From Acidobacteriota bacterium (GTDB taxonomy: Bacteria > Acidobacteriota > Terriglobia > Acidiferrales > UBA7541), in NCBI GenBank assembly GCA_013289585.1, contig JABCZR010000011.1, positions 1 to 64,000 of the forward strand: a stretch of 64,000 nucleotides of DNA, read 5' to 3'. Within the stretch, counting starts at the first letter, position 1; the number at the start of each line of letters is the position of its first letter. The notes beneath the pieces were generated by a model. That model saw only the letters and a program-made list of their open reading frames with translations. It searched no databases and was not told the DNA's origin. A program made the position numbers and the translations under genes. This document shows positions 33,961 to 44,709 of this stretch, one piece after another.

Positions 33961-34053
33961 CGAGGACCTCCCCAAGGATTGAACGCCGAAGCGAAAAGAA
34001 AAATGGCGAGATGAATTCGCCGCGACAAGGGCAACGCGACATAAGTGAAGCGG

Positions 34054-34136
34054 GCCGGGCTAAAGCCCGGCGTCTACAAACCAGAACACGATAGCAGAAA
34101 CAGAATACACCGGTCTAAACACCGGCCACTACAAAG
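34054..34136. repeat. Two REP-like palindromic elements
   Basis: Copy 1 (34054-34080): GCCGGGCT-AA-AGCCCGGC followed by GTCTACAAA. Copy 2 (34110-34136): CCGGT-CTAAAC-ACCGG followed by CCACTACAAAG. Both share a CTAAA loop and a CTACAAA tail and are 56 nt apart, between the thiolase and the bicupin. Short palindromes of this form are widespread in intergenic DNA of Acidobacteria, from general memory; here only these two are certain. Confidence 0.65.
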
Positions 34137-34137
34137 A

Positions 34138-35349
34138 TCAGAGGCGCTCGAAGATGCCGGCGGCGCCCATACCTCCCCCGATACACATGGTGACCATGCC
34201 GTAGCGGGCGTTGCGGCGCTGGAGCTCGCGAATGATGGTGGCGGTGAGTTTTGCACCGGTGCAGCCGAGGGGGTGGCCGAGGGCAATGGCGCCGCCGTTG
34301 GGATTGACGCGGGAAGCGTCGAGGCCGGTTTGCTGGATGACGGCAAGGGATTGCGCGGCAAAAGCTTCGTTGAGCTCGATGACGGCGATGTCGTTGAGCG
34401 AGAGTCCGGCGAGTTTCAATGCTTTAGGAATGGCGCGAACGGGGCCGATGCCGAATTCTTCAGGGAGAACACCGGCGGTGGTATAGGCGACGAAGCGCGC
34501 GAGGGGTTTCAATCCCAGAGATTTTGCGCGAGCGTCGGACATGATGACAGCCGCGGCGGCGCCATCGCTCATGGGCGAACTATTTCCCGCGGTGACTGTT
34601 CCTTTTGCATGAAAAGCGGGTTTGAGTTTTGCGAGGACGTCGAGATTCGTGTCGGCGCGCGGAAGTTCGTCGGTCGCGAAAGTAAAAGTTTGCGTTGTGG
34701 GCTTCACCGACCCGCCCTTTGGCTTGGAGGAAGCGCCGTTGCCGTTGGGGAGCGCGGTGATTTTCACTTCGACGGGAATCGTTTCGTCCTTGAAATTTCC
34801 GGCCGCTATGGCGGCGAGAGCTTTTTTGTGGGAGTCAGCGGAGAACTGGTCGGCTTGCTCGCGGGTGATGCCGAATTTGCGGGCGATATTTTCCGTGCCG
34901 AGTCCCATATTAATGTAAGTGTCGGGAGAGTGATCGACGAGCCAGGGATTGGGCGAAACTTTGTTGCCGCCCATGGGCACCATGGACATGGATTCGGTCC
35001 CGCCAGCGACGATAACTTCGGCGGAGCCGGCACGGATGCGTTCGGCGGCGAGCGCGATCGCCTGCAAGCCGGAGGAGCAGAAGCGGTTGATGGTCATGGC
35101 GCTGGTTTCGACAGGGAGTCCGGCGCGAAGGGAGGCGATGCGCGCGACGTTCATGCCTTGTTCGCCTTCGGGCATGGCACAGCCGAGGATGACGTCATCG
35201 ATTTCCTTAGGGTCGAGGCCGAGAACGCGGGCAAGTGCTTCCTTGATGGCCAGCGCGGCGAGATCGTCCGGGCGCGTGGCGCGGAGAGAGCCTTTGAAGG
35301 CGCGGCCGACGGGAGTGCGGACGGCGGAGACGATTACGGCTTCGGGCAT
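34138..35349 (-). CDS. Acetyl-CoA acetyltransferase (thiolase)
   Basis: 403 residues from ATG 35349, with GAGGT upstream; the frame is open for 60 more codons that carry no family sequence. All thiolase catalytic residues are present: Cys91 in [13 protein letters not shown], His359 in [10 protein letters not shown] and Cys389 in TMCIGGGMG. The start [20 protein letters not shown] is typical. It cleaves 3-ketoacyl-CoA or condenses two acetyl-CoA, and could complete beta-oxidation with the dehydrogenase at 19240, though the two are not linked. A long structured leader region lies upstream. Confidence 0.96.
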
Positions 35350-35580
35350 GGTGACCTCGCGATTCGGGAGTTCTTCATTATTGTTGGGCCGATGTTGGGG
35401 AAAAAGCAACTCTGGGTTGGGAGAGATCAGAAAACAGAGATCAGCGAAAGGGCGCGTCTGTTCGGGGGCCGTCTGGGGAAGCAAGGTGGCCGTGGTACAG
35501 GGGAGACTCGGAGTATTGCTGGTCAGCATAAGGCCCCCCCGTTTTTCATAAGTGTTGCATTTAAAGGGCTTAGAGCTCGT

Positions 35581-35633
35581 GTAAGTGTTTTAGAATCAAC
35601 ACTTACGGGCTTTCATTAGGTGTTGATTCTAAA
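35581..35633. repeat. Overlapping, mutually exclusive inverted repeats
   Basis: GTAAGTGTT (35581-35589) pairs with AACACTTAC (35598-35606). The intervening and overlapping stretch 35589-35602 instead pairs perfectly over 14 bp with 35620-35633. The two stems share 35598-35602, so only one can form at a time in RNA. A related half-copy, CATAAGTGTTGCATTTAAAG, lies just upstream from 35547. Confidence 0.55.
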
Positions 35634-35671
35634 GGGGTTGCGCGCAGATAGGTTATTCGGTTGGAAGAAAA

Positions 35672-35689
35672 GCGGCGGCAAGCCGCCGC
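35672..35689. repeat. GC-rich palindrome, REP-like
   Basis: GCGGCGGC-AA-GCCGCCGC. A simple perfect palindrome of the kind found scattered in intergenic DNA of Acidobacteria; could be a repeat element or part of ADOP 3' processing. Confidence 0.5.
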
Positions 35690-35825
35690 ATTCCAAATAT
35701 GGTTCTACCCACAGAGTGTTATAGCTAAAGGGTTAATCTGAGTCTAGGATTATTCTGGCGAAGGCCGAATAGACTTGGGGCTTGAACGGGTTCCAGCGGC
35801 ACTGGGCGCGAGTTGTAAGGGAAGT

Positions 35826-38297
35826 TCACTCGGCGCGGAGGGCTTCGACGGGGTCGACGGCGGCGGTGCGGCGCGAGGGCAGGTAGCTGGCCAGGAACGC
35901 CGTGGCGATGAGGCCGGCGGATACGGCGACGTAGGTCAGCGGGTCGGTGGGATTGACCTTGAAAAGCAAAGTGGACATGAGCCGCATGAGGATGATGGCG
36001 ACAACGAGTCCGCACGCGACACCGATGCCGGTCAAGAAAAGTCCGTGGCGCACAAACATGTTGGTGAGGGCCCGCTGCTGCGCGCCGAGGGCCATGCGAA
36101 TGCCAATCTCGCGGCGGCGCTGCGAAACAGAATAAGCGATCACGCCATAGATGCCCACGACACCGAGCAGCAAAGCCATGGCTCCGGCCACGCCGAGCAT
36201 GACCAACGTGAAAGAGGTACGCGCCATGGATTTTTTGTAGAAATATTCCACAGTGTGAACCTGGGCTAAAGGAAGATTGGGATTGACGGACCAGACGGCC
36301 TGGCGGATTTCCGACAGGAAATTTTCCGAACCGGCGCGGGAAGTGCGGAGAATAACGGCGACATCGCGGCTGACCGTAGTCGAATCGCTTTCAAAATGGT
36401 CCAGTAAAAGGGGCCAGTAGGCGGCTGTGGTTGCGGGCTTGCTGACGCCGTCGTAGTAGACGTTGCCAACGACGCCGACGATTTCGCGCCAATCGTCCTT
36501 GGTGCTGACACGGATTCGTTTGCCCAGGGCGGCGGTGGGATCGTGCCAATACTCGCGAGCGATGTTTTCGGAGACCAGCGCGACGGGAAGTTTCTTGTAA
36601 GTGTCGGTCCAGGTGAAATCGCGGCCAGCCACCAAGGGAGTGCCCATGGTGGACAAGAAGCCGGGCGAGACGAACTTGAACGCGCGAAGCGGGGGGAGTT
36701 CTCCCTCGGCATAGGTGCGGCCTTCGACGAAGATGGGATCGTGCCAGCCATTGCTATCCATGGGGATGGCAGTGGAGAGCGCGGCGGAAGCGACGCCGGG
36801 AACCGCTTCAACTTTGTGCAAGATTTGCTCTTCCATTCGGAGAACCGGCTCATTCTCCTTTATCTGCGCCTCGGGAATTGAAATGCGGAAGGTCTGCAGT
36901 TCGGCCGCATGGGAAAAGCCGGGATCGACTTTGGTCATGGCGCGGAAGGTGCGAATCATCAAGCCGGAGCAAATGAGCAGAACGAGGGCCAACGCGACTT
37001 GCACGACCACGAGAACGCTGCGGGCGCGATGCTGCTCGCGGCTTTGGCTCAGCGCGCGACCACCTTCGCGGATGCCGGTGCTCAATTGCGCCCCGGCGTA
37101 TTTGAAGACGGGAATTGCGCCGAAGAGAAGACTGGTGAAGATGGAGATCGCAACGGTGAAAAGCAGGACCGGTCCATCGATGCCGATATCGTGAACGCGC
37201 GGGAGTCCATCCGGCGCAATCAACACGAGGGCGCGCAAGGCGCCCCAGGCAAGTCCCAAACCGAGCAGGCTGCTGAGAAAGCCAAGAGAAAGGCTTTCGA
37301 GCCACAGTTCGCCAGCGATGCGGCCCCAACTTGCGCCCAGAGCCGCGCGCAAAGCCAATTCCTGGCGGCGGCCTTCGACGCGAACAAGAAGCAGGTTGGC
37401 GACGTTGGCGCAAGCGATCAGGAGGACCATGCCGATGGAGCCCATCAGGACCCACAAGACGCTGCCTGCGTCGCCCACGACGTCCCGCTTCAGCGGACGA
37501 ACGTTCGGGCCGATGTGGGCGTCATCGAAGAGCTTGACGCTGAACCCTGGCGGAGCTGGGAAGGTATTCCTAACGATGGGAAGCATGCGTGCGACATCGG
37601 TGTTGAGCTGCTCGAGGGTGGCGCCCGGCCTGAGCCGGCCGAGGGCTTCGTAGCTAAAGTTACCGAGGGAAACTTTGGCGCGTTCGAACCGGAAAGGGGT
37701 GAGGAGGGCAAGGTCGTCCTGGTCGAGAAAACGAAATCTTTGCGGCATGACACCAATGATTTGTTGCGACTTGCCGTCCACGATCATGGTTTTGCCGATA
37801 ACGGAAGGATCGCCGCCGAACTTATGACGCCAGTATCCGTAACTGAGGATGACGGTTTCCTGCGTGCCGGGCGAGTCATCTTCCTTGGTGAAGGTGCGGC
37901 CCAGCAGGGGTGGAATGCCCAGTAGCGGAAGGGTGCCGTCGGAGACGCGCATTGCACGGACTTGCTCAGGTTCGGCTACGCCCGTAACACTGACGGAGTC
38001 GCTCTGATACATTCCGATATCCTGGAGAGTCTTCCCCTGCTCCCGATAGATGAAATAGTTGGAAGGGGACATATTCAGATCGGCGATCTGAAAGCCCGGA
38101 GCAGTGTGCCAGACGCCGACTAACTCTTCAGCGCGGGGATAGGGCAGAGGCTTCAAGAGAACGCCTTCGAGGACGCTGAAGACCACCGTGTTACCGCCGA
38201 TGCCTGCGGCAAGAGTGATGACCGTGACGGCGGTGAACATCGGGGCGCGGCCGAGCCGCCGAAACACCTGTTTGAGCTGATTCGTCAAGAATTGCAT
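35826..38297 (-). CDS. ADOP-family ABC transporter permease (second copy)
   Basis: 823 residues from ATG 38297 (GGGAG nearby; an in-frame start at 38336 would add 13 atypical residues). The layout repeats that of the first copy: QLKQVFRRLGRAPMFTAVTV and first helix, PCD domain (about 55-270), FtsX helices around ANVANLLLVRVEGRRQELALRAALGASW, then the second unit (about 420-823) ending PSRRTAAVDPVEALRAE. No ATPase is encoded nearby. Sequence differs considerably from the other two copies, so it is not a recent duplicate. Neighbours are the thiolase and the SAM-hydrolase-like lipoprotein, both apparently unrelated. Confidence 0.93.
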   Translation of the reverse strand: MQFLTNQLKQVFRRLGRAPMFTAVTVITLAAGIGGNTVVFSVLEGVLLKPLPYPRAEELVGVWHTAPGFQIADLNMSPSNYFIYREQGKTLQDIGMYQSDSVSVTGVAEPEQVRAMRVSDGTLPLLGIPPLLGRTFTKEDDSPGTQETVILSYGYWRHKFGGDPSVIGKTMIVDGKSQQIIGVMPQRFRFLDQDDLALLTPFRFERAKVSLGNFSYEALGRLRPGATLEQLNTDVARMLPIVRNTFPAPPGFSVKLFDDAHIGPNVRPLKRDVVGDAGSVLWVLMGSIGMVLLIACANVANLLLVRVEGRRQELALRAALGASWGRIAGELWLESLSLGFLSSLLGLGLAWGALRALVLIAPDGLPRVHDIGIDGPVLLFTVAISIFTSLLFGAIPVFKYAGAQLSTGIREGGRALSQSREQHRARSVLVVVQVALALVLLICSGLMIRTFRAMTKVDPGFSHAAELQTFRISIPEAQIKENEPVLRMEEQILHKVEAVPGVASAALSTAIPMDSNGWHDPIFVEGRTYAEGELPPLRAFKFVSPGFLSTMGTPLVAGRDFTWTDTYKKLPVALVSENIAREYWHDPTAALGKRIRVSTKDDWREIVGVVGNVYYDGVSKPATTAAYWPLLLDHFESDSTTVSRDVAVILRTSRAGSENFLSEIRQAVWSVNPNLPLAQVHTVEYFYKKSMARTSFTLVMLGVAGAMALLLGVVGIYGVIAYSVSQRRREIGIRMALGAQQRALTNMFVRHGLFLTGIGVACGLVVAIILMRLMSTLLFKVNPTDPLTYVAVSAGLIATAFLASYLPSRRTAAVDPVEALRAE

Positions 38298-38438
38298 TGG
38301 CCGCTCCCTTGTGCCGGCGCTCGGACGGATGAGCACACGTGTGGCCTTGCTACAGAGTGATACGAAGGAGACGGGGAGAAGTTCCTAAGAAAAATGTTCC
38401 CACGATCGCTCGGTGGGAAAGCTGGGGGCGGCTGGTCC

Positions 38439-39386
38439 TCACTTCCCCTTGAAGGGGACACCCTTGCGGGGGATGAAAATGGCGCGCGGGGGAGTAATGT
38501 CAAATTTTTTGGCGTAGTTTCCTTCGTTGTTGGCGATGCCTACGCGGCCGCGCGAGTCAATGTAGAGAAGGGAATCGCCGACGGAGACGTCCATGAAGGT
38601 TTTCACATAAGGAAGAGTCACCGGCTTCTTGTTGATTTGAATGGTGAGTTTGTCGCCGAGGTTGTAGCCGAGCTTCTTGAATTCGTCGCCGGGGATGTCG
38701 GTGATCAGGGAACCGTAAGGATCGTCGAGGCCGATGATGTCGCCTTCGATGCCCTTGTCGGTGGTGGTGGAGGCTTTGGGAGTAAGGCGAACGAGTTGGG
38801 AAACTTCCGGGCCGACGAGATTAAAATCCCAACCGTTGGAGAGGTGCGCGGCGGCAGGAGAGAAAATGTCGCGGCCGTGAAAAGTGGAAGAGACGGCGGC
38901 TTGAATCATCCAGGCGGGATTGGTGATTTCGCGGGCGGATGCCAGGCCGTCTCGGTCGAGGACGAGAGTGACCAGGCCGTTGTCGGGTAGAACAAAATAC
39001 TGACCTTTTCTTGATTTCACGATGACGGCTTTGCGCGAAGTGCCCACGCCCGGATCGACGACCGCGAGGAATACCGTGCCGGTTGGATAATAGGGCGAGA
39101 CTCCGGCGAGGAAGCGCGCGCCTTCTTCAATCTGGAATGGAGTGACTTGATGAGTGATGTCCAGGATACGCGCTTCCGGCGCGATGCCGATGATCACCGC
39201 TTTGCAGATGGCGACCGCGTCGTTGGCGGTGCCAAAGTCGGTCATGAAGACGATCGCGGGGCGGCCTGCGGCTTGAGATGATGCGGCGCGGGCAGCGGCT
39301 TCTTGCTGGGCCGGGGATTTCGAACAGCCGGCGATTAAAGCGCAAGCGAGCAGGAACACCACGAACGGACGAACGCGTGAAATCAT
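38439..39386 (-). CDS. SAM hydroxide adenosyltransferase (DUF62) homologue with lipoprotein signal
   Basis: 315 residues. The first 21 form a lipoprotein signal with lipobox LIAGC (Cys21), followed by an Ala/Gln-rich linker. The rest is the DUF62 fold: VFMTDFGTANDAV near residue 47, VVDPGVGTSRKAV, FVLPDNG, STFHGRDIFSPAAAHLS. In the cytosolic enzyme family the catalytic triad is Asp-Arg-His, with spacings of 7 and 52 residues (PH0463); here Asp111, Arg118 and His170 match both spacings. The reaction would be SAM plus water to adenosine and methionine. An exported, lipid-anchored form is odd because SAM is cytosolic. It is divergent from the DUF481 gene. Confidence 0.9.
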   Translation of the reverse strand: MISRVRPFVVFLLACALIAGCSKSPAQQEAAARAASSQAAGRPAIVFMTDFGTANDAVAICKAVIIGIAPEARILDITHQVTPFQIEEGARFLAGVSPYYPTGTVFLAVVDPGVGTSRKAVIVKSRKGQYFVLPDNGLVTLVLDRDGLASAREITNPAWMIQAAVSSTFHGRDIFSPAAAHLSNGWDFNLVGPEVSQLVRLTPKASTTTDKGIEGDIIGLDDPYGSLITDIPGDEFKKLGYNLGDKLTIQINKKPVTLPYVKTFMDVSVGDSLLYIDSRGRVGIANNEGNYAKKFDITPPRAIFIPRKGVPFKGK

Positions 39387-39610
39387 TCATTTCTCCCGAA
39401 CCTGATTTGAAAAAAAGTATACAGCAAGCGCAAAAGGAATGTACGCAAAATGCCGCGGTTGGCGAAGGGTTTTGATTGGATTCGAATGACAGTTTCAGTA
39501 GACTAGGGCGACTTCGGACCGAAGCTACGCAAGAAAAAGCAAGCCTGCCGCGCCCAGAGAAGGCCCAGCCCGATTGCGTAAGATCAAGTTCCCAATAGAG
39601 GAGAAAAAAC

Positions 39611-40702
39611 GTGCGAAGAATTACGTTTTTTGCGTGGGTGTTGTGTTTGCTTGCGGCGAGTGCCATGGCGGACCAAGTCACTCTCAAAAATGGGGACCGG
39701 CTGACCGGAACGATCGTCAAGTCTGATGCCAAGACGCTGCTGATCAAGACAGCGTTTGCGGGCGACGTCAACGTTCAGTGGGATGCAGTAAGCGGGATCG
39801 AGTCAGCAGAACCGCTGCACCTGGCGTTGAAGGATGGTCAAACGATTGTGGGGACGGTGACGACGTCGGACAGCAAGTTCGATGTGGCCACAAAGGATAC
39901 GGGACCTGTCGCCGCACCAATCGATACGGTCGTGGCGGTGCGCAACGACGCGGAGCAGAAGTCCTATGACGACCAGATCGAACGGCTGCGGCATCCTCAT
40001 CTGACGGATTTCTGGAGCGGGGTTCTGGACACGGGCTTGAGCATGACGCGGGGAAATTCCGAATCGCTGACGTACTCGCTGGCGGGGAAAGCCGCGCGCG
40101 TCACCGAGCGTGACAAGCTCTCGTTCTACACGACAGCGATCTATGCGAACAGCAGCGTGAACGGCGTCAGCAACACGACAGCGCATGCCATCGCCGGCGG
40201 GTTTCGCGGAGACCTGAACGTGAGCGAGAAGGTTTTTGTTTTCGGTTTCACGGATTTCGCATATGACGCGTTCCAGCACCTGGATTTGCGGAACACCATC
40301 GGCGGCGGCCTGGGATATCACGTGATCAAGACGGCCAACACGACTTTTGATGTTTTTGGCGGCGGCGACTTCGAGCAGGAGTATTTCTCGCCCAATCCTC
40401 CGGCGACGCCGACGAACACGACGCGCAAGAGCGGAGAAATTGTGATCGGCGAAGAACTGGCAACAAAATTGAACAGCCGTATATCACTCAACGAGAAGTT
40501 TGCGTTCTATCCAAACCTTTCCGACACGGGTAATTACCGCTTCCAGTTCAGCACGGTGGCGGCGACAAAGCTCAAAGGATGGCTGAGCTGGCAGGTAAGC
40601 TTTCTTGACGGCTACTTGAGCAACCCGCTTCCCGGCTTGAAGAAAAACGACTTGCTTCTGTCCACCGGTATTCGATTGACATTCGGCAAGGGCGCGTTCT
40701 AA
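39611..40702 (+). CDS. DUF481 outer-membrane beta-barrel protein
   Basis: 363 residues from GTG 39611, with GAGGAG upstream. A signal peptide ends SAMADQ. Residues about 22-115 hold two small SH3-like repeats (LKNGDRLTGTIVKSDAKTL and LKDGQTIVGTVTTSDSKFD). From about 135 to the end it is a DUF481 barrel: FWSGVLDTGLSMTRGNSES, KLSFYTTAIYANSS, FRGDLNVSEKVFVFGFTDF, and a C-terminal strand LLLSTGIRLTFGKGAF with the terminal Phe typical of outer-membrane proteins. Function unknown. It is divergently transcribed from the SAM-hydrolase-like lipoprotein across a 224-nt promoter region. Confidence 0.87.
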   Translation: MRRITFFAWVLCLLAASAMADQVTLKNGDRLTGTIVKSDAKTLLIKTAFAGDVNVQWDAVSGIESAEPLHLALKDGQTIVGTVTTSDSKFDVATKDTGPVAAPIDTVVAVRNDAEQKSYDDQIERLRHPHLTDFWSGVLDTGLSMTRGNSESLTYSLAGKAARVTERDKLSFYTTAIYANSSVNGVSNTTAHAIAGGFRGDLNVSEKVFVFGFTDFAYDAFQHLDLRNTIGGGLGYHVIKTANTTFDVFGGGDFEQEYFSPNPPATPTNTTRKSGEIVIGEELATKLNSRISLNEKFAFYPNLSDTGNYRFQFSTVAATKLKGWLSWQVSFLDGYLSNPLPGLKKNDLLLSTGIRLTFGKGAF

Positions 40703-40761
40703 AAGGTAGGCACCTAGAGTTCTATCCTTCACAGCTAAGCGAAGAAAGGGAGGAAATCATC

Positions 40762-41001
40762 ATGATTTACTGGATCGTGGTTGGGCTTATCGCGGGGTGG
40801 CTCGCCGGACAAGTGATGAAGGGCGGCGGCTATGGCGTGCTGGTGGACATCATCCTTGGGATTCTTGGTGGCATCATCGGCGGCTGGGTCTTTGGGATGC
40901 TGGGGATTTGGCCCGGCGGAGGAATGATCGGGTCGATCATCGTGGCGTTCATCGGCGCGGTGATACTGGTGTGGATTACGCGCCTGGTGAAGAAGGCGTA
41001 G
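40762..41001 (+). CDS. GlsB/YeaQ/YmgE-family small membrane protein
   Basis: 79 residues, three glycine-rich membrane helices: YWIVVGLIAGWLAGQVMKG, then VDIILGILGGIIGGWVFG, then IGSIIVAFIGAVILVWITRL. This is the full length of the transglycosylase-associated protein family, which is commonly induced by stress and has no proven activity. The ATG follows GGGAGG. It lies 59 nt after the DUF481 gene and may share its transcript, and converges on the TPR gene. Confidence 0.92.
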   Translation: MIYWIVVGLIAGWLAGQVMKGGGYGVLVDIILGILGGIIGGWVFGMLGIWPGGGMIGSIIVAFIGAVILVWITRLVKKA

Positions 41002-41060
41002 CCGGGAATTCAGAATTGCAAAGCGCCTTGCTGCGGCGAGGGTATCGCCGGGGCCGCGCG

Positions 41061-42602
41061 TTATTTGTCCTGAAACTTTTGGTGTAATGAACTGGAATCC
41101 ATGTGCGTGACCAGGAACCACTCGACGGTGGGGCCGCGCCGATGTTTCAGGCGCGTGCGGGTCGCCTGGGCGGCGGAGGCGAGTCCCAGTTTTTCCTGCG
41201 TGATGGCCAGCTGCTGCAGCGCCAAGGGTGACTGCGGATCAGCGGCTAGCTCGTCCTTGGCGCTTGTAAGATCATCTTGCGCGAAGAGCAAGTAACCGCG
41301 AGCGGACTCGTAGGCATTCTCGATGACGAGATCGCGCGAGGATGTCGCGAGACCTTCGAGTTCGGAAATGGCCTCGACGGCATTTTCGGTGAAGCGGTTC
41401 AGTGCCGCGACTCGCGCGCGTTCGCGAAGAACGGTTGCGCGAGCGACCCCACGGTCCGCTTCGCTCATTCCCGCGAGAGGTTGCGCCAGAAAAACGGACA
41501 GGAGCCCTAGCTGATCGATCTCGTTCTGCACGTTAGGGGCGAGCATGGCGCGTCCCAGCTCGATATCAAAGCGCTCATTCGGCTCCTTCTTGCTGGCGGC
41601 TTCTTCGGATAGATCGTAAAGGGCCTTGCATCCCTGGACCGGCTGCCCTTCCCAAAAATAAACAAGCGCCTTCTGATATTTTGCATACAGTTCGTCACGG
41701 GGATTGTCTGCAATCTGGATAGCGCGGTCATATTCCTGCCGGGCGTTGCCGAAATCTCCCATGAGAGTCAGCGTGTCACCCAAGCCGAGCTGCGAGGGGA
41801 AGTAGGTTGGATCGACTTGCAGGGCGGCACCGTAGTGCTCAAGCGATCCACGGTCGTCCCCAGAGAGGCGCAAAATTTCGCCGAGCGAGTCTTCGGGGTT
41901 AGCGGAGGTGGACTGCAATTCCATGTAGCGCTTCAAGGAGGCAACTGCTTTGAGGGGTTCCCCGATCTGGACGTACAGGTAACCGAGGCGGTTCAAGGCC
42001 GCGGGGAAATTTGGATCGATTTCCAGGGCCGTCTCCATGAGCGTCCGCGCCCGATTCTCATCCTGCTGAAGAAACAGCCATTCCCCGGTGAGATAAAGGA
42101 TGTGCTTGTTCCTGGGATAGCGCTTCAAGAGATCGTTCATGCTCATGATGGCGGGGAGAAGATCGCGTTCCTGAATGCTGGTCATCCAACGGACCAGGAG
42201 TTGCTCGTCAGAAGCCGATTGGGAAAGCAAGGATTTTGCTTTCGCCAGCGCCGAGGAATCGGGAAGGGTGCGTCGGGCAGCGAAGGAAAGCATGGCGTAG
42301 CCAAGCGCTGAGCGCGGATCCTTTTCCGTGGCGTGGCGCGCATGCACTACGGCGTCGTCATACATAGCGTTTTCATACTTGTCGATGGCCAGTTCCAACG
42401 CCCCGCGGGCTTCTTCGGATCGCGTGGAAAGCGCAATGGCTCCAAACAAGTGTTGGGGAACCGGGGCGATCGCGGGCGTTTTTTCGGTAGAACGCACGGC
42501 GGTCTCTTCGACGCGAGCTGCGGAAGTTTGCGCCCCTGCGCTGGCTGCAAAGAAAGAAGGGAAAATCAGAAGAAAGAAGCGGGTAGTGAAGCGACGCATC
42601 AT
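41061..42602 (-). CDS. Exported TPR-repeat protein
   Basis: 513 residues from ATG 42602, with GGGAG five bases upstream; ATG 42599 is equally possible. A signal peptide ends ASAGAQ. From about residue 60 onward it is helical repeats, including AIDKYENAMYDDAVVHARHA, MEDTALEIDP-like units (LMETALEIDPNFPAALNRLG), LKRYMELQSTSANPEDSLGE and ALQVDPTYFPSQLGLGDTL. No catalytic domain is present. It is probably a periplasmic scaffold or an assembly factor, with no partner evident. It is divergent from the mini substrate-binding protein gene. Confidence 0.82.
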   Translation of the reverse strand: MMRRFTTRFFLLIFPSFFAASAGAQTSAARVEETAVRSTEKTPAIAPVPQHLFGAIALSTRSEEARGALELAIDKYENAMYDDAVVHARHATEKDPRSALGYAMLSFAARRTLPDSSALAKAKSLLSQSASDEQLLVRWMTSIQERDLLPAIMSMNDLLKRYPRNKHILYLTGEWLFLQQDENRARTLMETALEIDPNFPAALNRLGYLYVQIGEPLKAVASLKRYMELQSTSANPEDSLGEILRLSGDDRGSLEHYGAALQVDPTYFPSQLGLGDTLTLMGDFGNARQEYDRAIQIADNPRDELYAKYQKALVYFWEGQPVQGCKALYDLSEEAASKKEPNERFDIELGRAMLAPNVQNEIDQLGLLSVFLAQPLAGMSEADRGVARATVLRERARVAALNRFTENAVEAISELEGLATSSRDLVIENAYESARGYLLFAQDDLTSAKDELAADPQSPLALQQLAITQEKLGLASAAQATRTRLKHRRGPTVEWFLVTHMDSSSLHQKFQDK

Positions 42603-42839
42603 GCGGACTCCCGTCGGGCTCATGGAAGCAGAGTGATCTCCAATATGAACTTAGCGTGGCACGGCAGATGTGGAAACTGGCCGAAGGGACAGGTGTGCGC
42701 GATGATGAACAAGAGGCCGGCAAAGGGAGAACGGAGGGGGGAGGCGCACGGTTGGACACAGCGTGCGTGACGGGTACTTGCCTGGGAACGTTGCCGGTGA
42801 ACATACTTCGGTTAACCTGCCTGAAAGCGAGAGTGGGGA

Positions 42840-43328
42840 ATGATGCGTGTGAAGGCTTCTGCGAAATGTCTGCGCGTGGCAGCAGTTCTGTGTTTTATTT
42901 TCGTTCTGGCTCACTCCGTGGTTCCAGCCGTAAAGAACATGGCGATTGTTGTGTCGGCGGGGAGCAAGATCACGGATGTGCCGCTTGCCGACCTGACAAA
43001 GCTGTGCAAGGGCGTGCAGAAAGCGTGGCCTGATGGCAAGGCCTTTACGCTGGTTATGAAAGATCCGGAGTCTCCGGGGATGCGCACGGCGGTGCAGAAG
43101 CTCTTTGGGGCCGAGCCCGGGGACATCAAATCAACCATTGCAAAGCTGAATGAAGCGCGCATGATGGTCAAGATTGTGGAGAGCGACGAGGAACTGCTGC
43201 GCACCGTGGGCGCCACACCCGGAGCCGTTGGGATTCTGGACGTGTACTCGATCAACAGTTCGGTGAAAGTGTTGCGCGTGGATGGCAAGCTGCCGTTCGA
43301 TTTGGGTTATGTGTTCAAAGGGAACTAG
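42840..43328 (+). CDS. Small exported PBP-like (PstS-type) protein
   Basis: 162 residues from ATG 42840 (a second ATG follows immediately), with GGGGA upstream. A signal segment covers about 1-30. The mature part (about 33-162) resembles one lobe of a phosphate-type substrate-binding protein: MAIVVSAGSKITDVPLADLTKLCKG, FTLVMKDPESPGMRTAVQKLFG, and the closing VGATPGAVGILDVYSIN, the GxIGY-like loop of this superfamily. At about 130 mature residues it is half the size of PstS, and no permease or ATPase is adjacent. Function unknown; could be a stand-alone binding or adaptor protein. Confidence 0.75.
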   Translation: MMRVKASAKCLRVAAVLCFIFVLAHSVVPAVKNMAIVVSAGSKITDVPLADLTKLCKGVQKAWPDGKAFTLVMKDPESPGMRTAVQKLFGAEPGDIKSTIAKLNEARMMVKIVESDEELLRTVGATPGAVGILDVYSINSSVKVLRVDGKLPFDLGYVFKGN

Positions 43329-43440
43329 AAGCGAGCCAGGCTTAGGCCGGGCTGGCAACGCATTTCTTTCGAAGTGAACGGCCTCTCCAGAAGATCAGAA
43401 TTCCAAAAAACCGTGCGACTCAAACCGGTAGAGCGCGTCA

Positions 43441-44709
43441 CTACGACGCAGTGGCGCCCGGCGTGCGCAGGGCGCGAAGGGCGGCGTATCCGAGAAGCGC
43501 AATGGCGAGGCCAAGTGCGATCCATAACAAATTGGGGTGACGTTCTGTGAATGGGCGAGGGTCGGCGTAGTTCGCGGTCAGCTCTTCTGTGCCGAGGCTG
43601 AGGTGCAGCAGCTCCTCGTTGGGCTGGATGTGAAGCGTTCGAGCAAAGTCGTATTGCGGCGCTGAAGCGCGGGCATTGCCATAGAGCAGGCGATACGCGC
43701 GATTTTCCCGGGGACGGAAAAGGACGAAGCGCAGCCTCATGGCGACCGACATTCGAACGGATGAAAGAGGCGCATCGTTTCCGTTCAGAATCTCCGCGCG
43801 GAAATATCTCGCTCCCCAGGAATCGCAGCACCGTACGCGGAGAGATTCTTCCGTTTTTCCTCTCGTGGTGTAGCGGTAAATCTCCCCGCCCCCAGCGGAT
43901 TGCCACTCCTTTTCATCCATGCTCGTCAAAATCCTCACAGCCCGATAAAACTCCGGCTGGTCCGTCTCGAAGTTCAACTCGGCGACGGGAATCGTGGAGC
44001 TCCCGAGATCTACGGTCCATTGCGTTCGCGATGGCACGCCGGTTGATTCCGGAGGCCGCAGCGCAATAAGAGGGGCGGCAGCAAGATCCTCTTTCTGGGT
44101 GTTCTGCGTAACAAAAATTTCAACGCTGGTAACAGGGAATTGATGTGCGGGCTCCTTGATGCGCAATCGCAAGTAGCGGGCATTGTTCTCGGAGTAATGG
44201 ATGGTCTGGCTGCCATCGAGGTTTTCCCTTCGAAAGCGCGAGATAGGCGCGCGAGGATTGACGATGCGCCAGAGGTGGGCGTCGTCGCTGGCCGCGATTT
44301 CCACCCAATTGATGAAATCGGATTCTGGGGTTTGCACGCGGAGGCTATTGTGAAAACCTGGCCGATCGCCGAGATCGACGATGACTTGGGTGAATTGGCC
44401 GGGGACGAAGCTGTTCTCCCTGAGGGTAGAGGGAAGGGCGACGTTCTGAGCCGGCGGGGCAAGCAAGTTTCTTACTTCGTAAGGCTGTTCGTTGCCAAGG
44501 TCGTCGATGACTCGCAAGTCGGCGAGATAGTTTTCGGAGTGAGCGAAGACTTCGCGATCGAGTGTCGCGTAGTTAAGAATTCCGGATCGCGCGGATTCGA
44601 TGGGGCGCGAATAGCGCCAGGAGCGCCAGGGGTCAGGCAAGTCCGCGGCAAACGTGGCGGCGGCGAGCGCGGCGAAGACGAGCGATAGAGAAAGGGTTCT
44701 GCGCATCAT
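43441..44709 (-). CDS. DUF3999-family membrane-anchored protein
   Basis: 422 residues. It has a signal peptide (ending TFAADL), a long beta-rich extracytoplasmic region (about 25-375) with LDREVFAHSENYLADLRVIDDLGNE at the start and two discoidin-like halves, and a C-terminal membrane helix (WIALGLAIALLGYAALRAL). This matches DUF3999 proteins, which are almost always encoded with a DUF2339 membrane protein, as here. Its ATG overlaps the DUF2339 stop (44706-44709, ATGA on the minus strand), so the two are translationally coupled. Function of the pair is unknown; envelope-related by topology. Confidence 0.88.
   Translation of the reverse strand: MMRRTLSLSLVFAALAAATFAADLPDPWRSWRYSRPIESARSGILNYATLDREVFAHSENYLADLRVIDDLGNEQPYEVRNLLAPPAQNVALPSTLRENSFVPGQFTQVIVDLGDRPGFHNSLRVQTPESDFINWVEIAASDDAHLWRIVNPRAPISRFRRENLDGSQTIHYSENNARYLRLRIKEPAHQFPVTSVEIFVTQNTQKEDLAAAPLIALRPPESTGVPSRTQWTVDLGSSTIPVAELNFETDQPEFYRAVRILTSMDEKEWQSAGGGEIYRYTTRGKTEESLRVRCCDSWGARYFRAEILNGNDAPLSSVRMSVAMRLRFVLFRPRENRAYRLLYGNARASAPQYDFARTLHIQPNEELLHLSLGTEELTANYADPRPFTERHPNLLWIALGLAIALLGYAALRALRTPGATAS

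Follow-up and report, generated by a model that had tools for sequence, protein, structure and literature searches.

A predicted envelope lipoprotein of the DUF62 (SAM_HAT) family in Acidobacteriota combines a hydrolytic triad with halogenase-shared residues

The SAM-splitting DUF62 (SAM_HAT) family contains hydrolases, such as PH0463, MJ1651, the Thermotoga protein 2zbu and StDUF62, as well as the chlorinases SalL, ClA1 (7ccg) and ClA2 (7xto) and the fluorinase FlA. The triad of PH0463 is numbered D68/R75/H127 in PMC4859513, a source whose text also gives the family motifs PxNGL and IDxxFGN and calls conserved the Asn at the position of FlA N215. The halogenases are described as devoid of the D/R/H triad in a passage of PMC10491745. 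In the fluorinase, residues D16, D21, S23, W50, Y77, F156, N215, S269, R270 and A279 are listed as critical for SAM and fluoride binding (PMC3999930, legend of figure S2). A preference for (S,S)-SAM, opposite to that of StDUF62, is reported for the fluorinase in PMC12120602, where the reason why cells hydrolyze SAM back to its precursors is presented as an open question. The family and its fold are known. An envelope location and the combination of residues reported here are not described in the open-licence literature searched, in which no description of an exported DUF62 protein was found, the primary DUF62 papers being outside that scope.

The gene studied here, from a soil bacterium, is located at 38439..39386 on the minus strand of the window, the whole stretch of 64,000 nucleotides that was analyzed. 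The ORF list confirmed a protein of 315 aa starting with an ATG at 39386, and a Shine-Dalgarno-like GGGAG was recognized by eye 6 nt upstream of this codon (39393..39397, minus strand). A complete DUF62 enzyme had been announced by the original prediction and both domains were recovered by Pfam above their cut-offs: SAM_HAT_N (PF01887) over residues 45-191 (38814..39254, minus strand; 1.2e-51, 174.7 vs 26.3 bits) and SAM_HAT_C (PF20257) over residues 215-299 (38490..38744, minus strand; 2.2e-16, 60.4 vs 25.5 bits). The claim that Asp111, Arg118 and His170 stand at the known spacing of the triad was checked in the PH0463 sequence and holds, the intervals being 7 and 52 residues in both proteins. 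The core is under purifying selection, with dN/dS values of 0.08-0.11 against five relatives (L001, L003, L007, L010 and L013). In the same comparison the signal and the low-complexity tether that follows it (residues 22-43; 39258..39323, minus strand) are less constrained than the core. A MacB_PCD/FtsX ABC permease gene lies downstream on the same strand (35826..38336, minus strand) and a DUF481 gene is divergent (39611..40702, plus strand), both assigned by Pfam. These two neighbor clusters were found in 11/85 and 13/85 loci of the window's clade, respectively; they say little about function and neither is claimed as a functional partner. No Rfam match was obtained in 34000-44000 and no promoter-like site in 38300-39650, where terminator-like sites were at expectation (1 vs 1.5 expected), and a reading as an RNA element or as a promoter or terminator was dropped on these grounds. 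A phage or plasmid origin was also dropped: viral contigs gave one pattern match and no relative, and the matches to plasmid and phage records were all below 60% identity.

Relatives of the protein were collected from genome contigs (the best 80 of 130, all confirmed), and 70 further loci came from region fetches and from a phylum survey in which the DUF62 family was present in 212/396 genomes. The window itself (L081) was removed before the rows were sorted into the window's clade (85 rows) and the other, cytosolic Acidobacteriota proteins (66 rows). Two contigs are duplicates (L115 of L069, L118 of L047), leaving 83 distinct clade loci. Sampling of the 66 cytosolic rows was not random: 30 of them were taken as the top survey matches and the others were chosen by hand from the survey list.

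The N-terminus of the window protein carries a predicted signal peptide over residues 1-20 (MISRVRPFVVFLLACALIAG; 39327..39386, minus strand). The lipobox announced by the original prediction is present as stated ahead of the DUF62 fold: residues 17-21 read LIAGC, and Cys21 (39324..39326, minus strand) is the predicted lipidation site. A second lipobox-like motif, LLAC15, was the one flagged by the pattern script in this protein; it falls inside the hydrophobic stretch and is less plausible than IAGC21, which is a manual reading. By pattern and hydropathy, the signal peptide thus ends in a lipobox Cys like that of a bacterial lipoprotein. In E. coli, a Ser at position +2 directs lipoproteins to the outer membrane, and the +2 residue of the window protein is Ser. 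An internal start near residue 42 was the artefact that could have undone the export claim. The only start codons before I45 are those of residues 1, 9 and 10, and a start artefact was rejected because the stretch from residue 10 to the fold offers no further start; the signal peptide is, moreover, clade-wide. A hydropathy rule of our own, applied uniformly in place of a dedicated predictor, found it in 83/85 clade rows (81/83 distinct loci) vs 0/66 of the other Acidobacteriota DUF62 proteins. The two misses are L065, which is cut by a contig end, and L066, which falls under the threshold and has a visible STGC. A chance lipobox as the cause of export was ruled out because the signal peptide is clade-wide. 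The survey of lipoboxes among homologues bore out the lipoprotein claim for part of the clade: the pattern occurs in 36/85 rows, mainly in relatives titled gp2, but the remaining rows look like soluble periplasmic proteins, and most of them end in A-x-A-like sites when inspected by eye. Some lipobox calls behind this count are loose, the window protein and L007 being flagged on an inner Cys, L045 being doubtful and L066 being missed. The proportions of 83/85 and 36/85 indicate that export, as predicted from these signals, is old in this clade and that predicted lipidation is the mark of a subgroup. It is very probable that the window protein is exported and anchored by a lipid, and that this is inherited rather than accidental.

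The exported form is a further subfamily rather than just a housekeeping copy that has changed location, since many genomes hold exported and cytosolic genes together. In a class sample of 299 genomes, the window protein found a match in 244; among the matches listed, 60 were at >=49% identity and the rest at <=42%. The exported form was found in 60/299 genomes, with more than one match in 37 and a single match in 23, the window genome included. In those 37 genomes, the further DUF62 matches among those listed were at 32-37% identity, which is the cytosolic range. One exported and one cytosolic gene were read directly in each of G084 (L115, L114), G346 (L121, L122) and G026 (L120, L094). Only an exported copy was found in the window genome; as this genome is 97% complete, the absence of a cytosolic copy is not firm.

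The active-site positions were then compared across these rows. Asp111 (39054..39056) and Arg118 (39033..39035) are present in 85/85 clade rows and His170 (38877..38879, all minus strand) in 83/85, the exceptions being L006 with Gln and L072 with Asp. Departures at the triad are also seen in cytosolic Acidobacteriota, where Glu replaces the His in 7/66 rows (L131, L141, L142, L145, L149, L150 and L151), Asn replaces it in L097, and His replaces the Arg in L124. Residues D56, C61, R91, F106 and R279 are each found in 85/85 clade rows and set the clade against the cytosolic group, Phe106 occurring also in 12/66 cytosolic rows. Conversely, Glu at position 283 is present in 66/66 cytosolic rows and absent from the clade, the window protein included. 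The pair Ser278-Arg279 (38550..38555, minus strand) is the equivalent of fluorinase S269-R270 by the coordinates of two agreeing phmmer alignments. Both residues are present in 85/85 clade rows; Ser278 is shared with 66/66 cytosolic rows whereas Arg279 was found in 0/65 of the cytosolic residues listed. By analogy with the fluorinase, Arg279 suggests a preference for (S,S)-SAM. Of the fluorinase contacts listed above, D16, F156, S269 and R270 are matched in the window protein by D50, F169, S278 and R279, whereas D21, S23 and N215 are replaced by N55, A57 and S226. Position 55 is Asp in 44/85 clade rows and position 57 is Ser in 34/85, some other members of the clade (DDSVAxC) matching the fluorinase at both. 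Ser226 (38709..38711, minus strand) is found in 37/85 clade rows and 1/66 cytosolic rows and goes with the lipobox (34/36 lipobox rows vs 3/49 others). The same residue alters the second family motif: PDNGL is present in the window protein, and IDxxFGN reads LDDPYGS with Ser for Asn, the Asn being kept in 48/85 clade rows.

An AlphaFold2 model built from 51 clade sequences reached a mean pLDDT of 88. Its 40 PDB fold matches at E <= 0.001 all belong to the DUF62/SAM_HAT family; the best was SalL (6rz2, E 2e-30, TM 0.84), and TM-scores were about 0.8 to 0.85 against SalL, the Thermotoga protein, ClA1 and the fluorinase. For the N-terminal piece of one clade member, the fluorinase was the best match of all PDB chains. 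In a tree of 74 rows, the clade grouped with SalL and ClA1, its nearest relatives there, apart from the cytosolic Acidobacteriota, PH0463, MJ1651 and the Thermotoga protein (99% SH-aLRT). In trees with other taxa, a branch separated the clade from the other rows (84 and 88 SH-aLRT), and the clade lay next to the halogenases (89 and 84). A topology placing the halogenases among the cytosolic forms was less likely and not rejected (p-AU 0.18), and the Thermotoga row moved from the cytosolic forms in the 74-row tree to a weak position on the clade's side in the second tree. The trees included 35/85 clade rows throughout and 34, 23 and 21 of the 66 cytosolic rows in the first, second and third, respectively; the fluorinase is in none of them and all three are quick trees without bootstrap. 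The second contained an incomplete row, derived from a disrupted E. coli copy, which the third replaced by an intact one. The third omitted cyt_L136 and a Microvirga row for their long branches, and cyt_L148 for no good reason. Since the halogenase branch is long and the trees are quick, the moderately supported placement of the clade beside the halogenases is a lead, not a proof.

The window protein can thus be set against each of the described systems. It is like the DUF62 hydrolases PH0463, MJ1651, 2zbu and StDUF62 in both domains, in the fold and in the triad, spaced as in PH0463, and unlike them in its export signal and lipobox, its fluorinase-like Arg279 and its Ser226 in place of Asn. 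It falls short of the (R)-SAM hydrolase equivalogs (NF058624, 175 vs 350; NF053629, 139.8 vs 470). The closest solved structures are those of the chlorinases SalL (36-37% identity), ClA1 and ClA2, which share a similar N-terminal motif; the Ser-Arg pair is also found in SalL and ClA1. Unlike these enzymes, the window protein has the hydrolytic triad, a signal peptide and Val109 at the Tyr70 position, which sets it apart from SalL-type chlorinases. Beyond the contacts that differ, it departs from FlA by its triad, its predicted export and the absence of the fluorinase loop, residues 94-113 of which fall in an alignment break and have no counterpart.

We tentatively propose, with a confidence somewhat short of even, that the window protein is an envelope-anchored lipoprotein hydrolase that releases adenosine and methionine for salvage from SAM or from a closely related adenosyl-sulfonium compound. 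The protein would be exported by the Sec pathway and lipidated at Cys21, the flexible tether holding the enzyme in the envelope, probably at the outer membrane; export and anchoring would place the active site in the envelope. SAM or its relative would reach the periplasm, where D111, R118 and H170 would activate water for an attack at C5' of the substrate, a chemistry of SAM hydrolysis taken from the accounts of the family in PMC10491745 and PMC4859513. The products, adenosine and methionine (or the matching thioether), would be taken up and salvaged. In some relatives, a neighboring deaminase and a PNP-like enzyme could take the adenosine to inosine and then to hypoxanthine. The export signal, the lipobox, the complete fold with its triad and the clade-wide conservation are read from the sequences; that the protein is lipidated, sits at the outer membrane and is catalytically active, which substrate it uses and that it serves salvage are the inferred parts of the scheme.

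The conserved catalytic residues speak for SAM salvage and so, in relatives, do neighboring genes for an outer-membrane barrel, a PNP-like enzyme, adenosine deaminase and, at two loci, SAM synthetase. An outer-membrane beta-barrel protein that carries a carboxypeptidase-regulatory domain is encoded directly downstream on the same strand in 21/83 rows with a callable downstream ORF (20/81 distinct), three of these proteins being Pfam-confirmed. The gap is <100 bp in 17/21, one of them an overlap due to a generous ORF start, and the barrel cluster has one further, non-adjacent member among the 619 ORFs compared. A plug-bearing TonB receptor is found upstream in L039 and L043; a third candidate, in L034, was dropped for an N-terminus unlike that of such a receptor. 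PNP-like genes (PF01048) are near 16/83 distinct loci, with one example Pfam-confirmed, and adenosine deaminase genes (PF00962) near 10/83, with four examples Pfam-confirmed. The deaminase accounts for 11 ORF rows, two of them truncated at the end of the locus; most of the other nine have a signal-like N-terminus by eye. metK, coding for SAM synthetase, lies two ORFs upstream of the exported DUF62 gene in two loci (L062:293-1465 and L068:47-1219). Homoserine dehydrogenase and class-V aminotransferase genes are each near 14 distinct loci. In another class, the exported DUF62 gene of L120 is followed by genes for a PALP-family enzyme and two Peripla_BP_2 proteins (stretch L120:4233-6887); in L121, also of another class, none of these gene types was found among the three neighbors tested.

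These neighbors were compared with those of the cytosolic genes within 3.3 kb, at loci having >=2 kb of flank on both sides (67/83 exported and 29/66 cytosolic loci). In this control, whose p values take no account of kinship and whose cytosolic loci come from other lineages, the exported and cytosolic loci gave 18/67 vs 0/29 for the barrel (p 0.001), 16/67 vs 0/29 for homoserine dehydrogenase (p 0.002), 11/67 vs 0/29 for the PNP-like gene (p 0.03) and 9/67 vs 0/29 for the deaminase (p 0.05). The plug-bearing receptor and metK were each at 2/67 vs 0/29 (p 1 each). Class-V aminotransferase, at 15/67 vs 5/29 (p 0.78), is therefore an uninformative neighbor.

The deaminase was also followed at the level of genomes. 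It was found in 100 genomes and the exported clade in 60, and both occur together in 44/299 class genomes (Fisher p 2e-12, kinship uncorrected), a count that takes both genome searches as covering the same 299 and leaves out five weaker matches to the deaminase (E 1e-21 to 1e-26). The exported clade is absent from 56/100 deaminase genomes. The two genes are <=7 kb apart in 7/44 genomes (G600, G647, G084, G594, G585, G210 and G023), and these close pairs represent five genera of one family. The purine-salvage neighbors seen in other Terriglobia are therefore partly shared by descent, and they do not lie beside the window gene. The neighbor-type deaminase was not found in the window genome, which has PF01048 genes and one adenosine deaminase of another kind, with no evident signal.

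SAM hydrolysis is doubted as the physiological function of a cytosolic relative in PMC12120602, and a literature search on free SAM reaching soil bacteria in useful amounts found no paper. An exported hydrolase acting on something else is a rather unlikely candidate: the lipoprotein subgroup, with an altered nucleobase or amino-acid pocket, would split another adenosyl or nucleosidyl sulfonium compound. The replacement by Ser226 of an Asn that is called conserved in PMC4859513 speaks for a non-SAM substrate and is concentrated in the lipobox rows, and N55 and A57 likewise depart from fluorinase D21 and S23. Nevertheless, D50, F169, S278 and R279 are kept at fluorinase contact places, and no neighbor seen points to such a compound. 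It is distinctly improbable that the enzyme serves clean-up rather than nutrition, acting outside the cytoplasm to dispose of leaked SAM or of the inactive (R,S) epimer. A Salinispora DUF62 protein is reported to prefer (R,S)-SAM in PMC12120602, and the proximity of metK in L062 and L068 would fit. However, a cytosolic enzyme would be better suited to this task and 37/60 clade genomes hold a further DUF62 match; Arg279, in addition, is common to the clade and the (S,S)-preferring fluorinase and not to the cytosolic forms.

The likeness to halogenases raises the question of whether the protein could be a SAM halogenase acting in the envelope, where chloride is available. Chlorinases are its best PDB matches in both sequence and fold, and the clade stands beside SalL and ClA1 in the trees with 84-89 SH-aLRT. 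This reading was nevertheless set aside because the triad is present, in contrast with the halogenases as described in PMC10491745; Val109 at the chlorinase Tyr70 position, a score of 136.4 against the cut-off of 400 for the SAM-dependent fluorinase (TIGR04507) and the missing counterpart of the fluorinase loop concur in making it the least credible of the alternatives. Hardly more credible is a catalytically idle lipoprotein with a binding or sensing function. The loss of the His in L006 and L072 would agree with it, as would the fact that the cellular role of the family is not established, but the near-invariance of the triad in the clade and a core dN/dS of ~0.1 argue for an active enzyme. 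Nothing seen in the analysis spoke for the inhibitory or signalling function that the original prediction had also offered.

The salvage reading can be extended to a composite picture, which is speculative and rather unlikely. Acidobacteriota would have a separate envelope branch whose hydrolytic triad is kept within a pocket of halogenase type that prefers (S,S)-SAM, and this branch would be the hydrolase lineage nearest to the chlorinases and the fluorinase. It would feed on extracellular SAM for purine and methionine, together with an outer-membrane transporter and an exported adenosine deaminase, and its Ser226 lipoprotein subgroup may have moved to another adenosyl compound. A branch acting outside the cytoplasm would not adjust the cytosolic SAM pool, which opens its substrate and its use to direct study, and an exported clade in related bacteria lets the purpose of this puzzling SAM-splitting family be asked. 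The hydrolytic triad together with halogenase-shared residues bears on the origin of the fluorinase and the chlorinase. If extracellular SAM is a soil nutrient, the branch would add a new link to sulfur and purine cycling.

The original prediction took the known DUF62 members to be cytosolic, a premise that proved too narrow. DUF62 proteins bearing a signal by eye were found in Aeromonas caviae (L156) and E. coli (L197, 300 aa); export is therefore not unique to Acidobacteriota. These proteins, annotated as 'SAM hydrolase/SAM-dependent halogenase family protein', resemble the clade in keeping D, R and H behind an N-terminal signal peptide. They differ from it in an A-x-A-like signal end, a separate branch and, next to the Ser, a Leu at the position of the clade's Arg279. 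A topology uniting all signal-bearing proteins in one clade was rejected (p-AU 0.002), and Listeria and Enterococcus proteins of the same branch as the E. coli and Aeromonas ones have no signal. The E. coli gene (L195:4030-4932, L197:230-1132) was matched in 2374/5426 complete genomes. It sits between yigE and uvrD in four of five records opened, the other showing only uvrD. No pseudogene flag was seen in four spread records; the copy of strain 118UI is flagged as a pseudogene with an internal stop, and that of strain KE47 (L192) is split into two ORFs. The E. coli homologue would offer a tractable test system for the function of exported DUF62 proteins.

Two further records were noted among the homologues outside Acidobacteriota. 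A record labelled Helicobacter phage Pt11444_1 (L193:929-1831) contains a DUF62 gene that is a near neighbor of the E. coli gene, as judged from short tree branches, and adjoins a gene annotated MraW; the record is possibly a contamination or a mislabelled chromosomal stretch. On an Enterococcus faecium plasmid (L153:481-2778), a DUF62 gene is directly followed by genes for the substrate-binding protein of an ECF transporter and for an ABC ATPase, a gene order that hints at an imported substrate for this signal-less relative.
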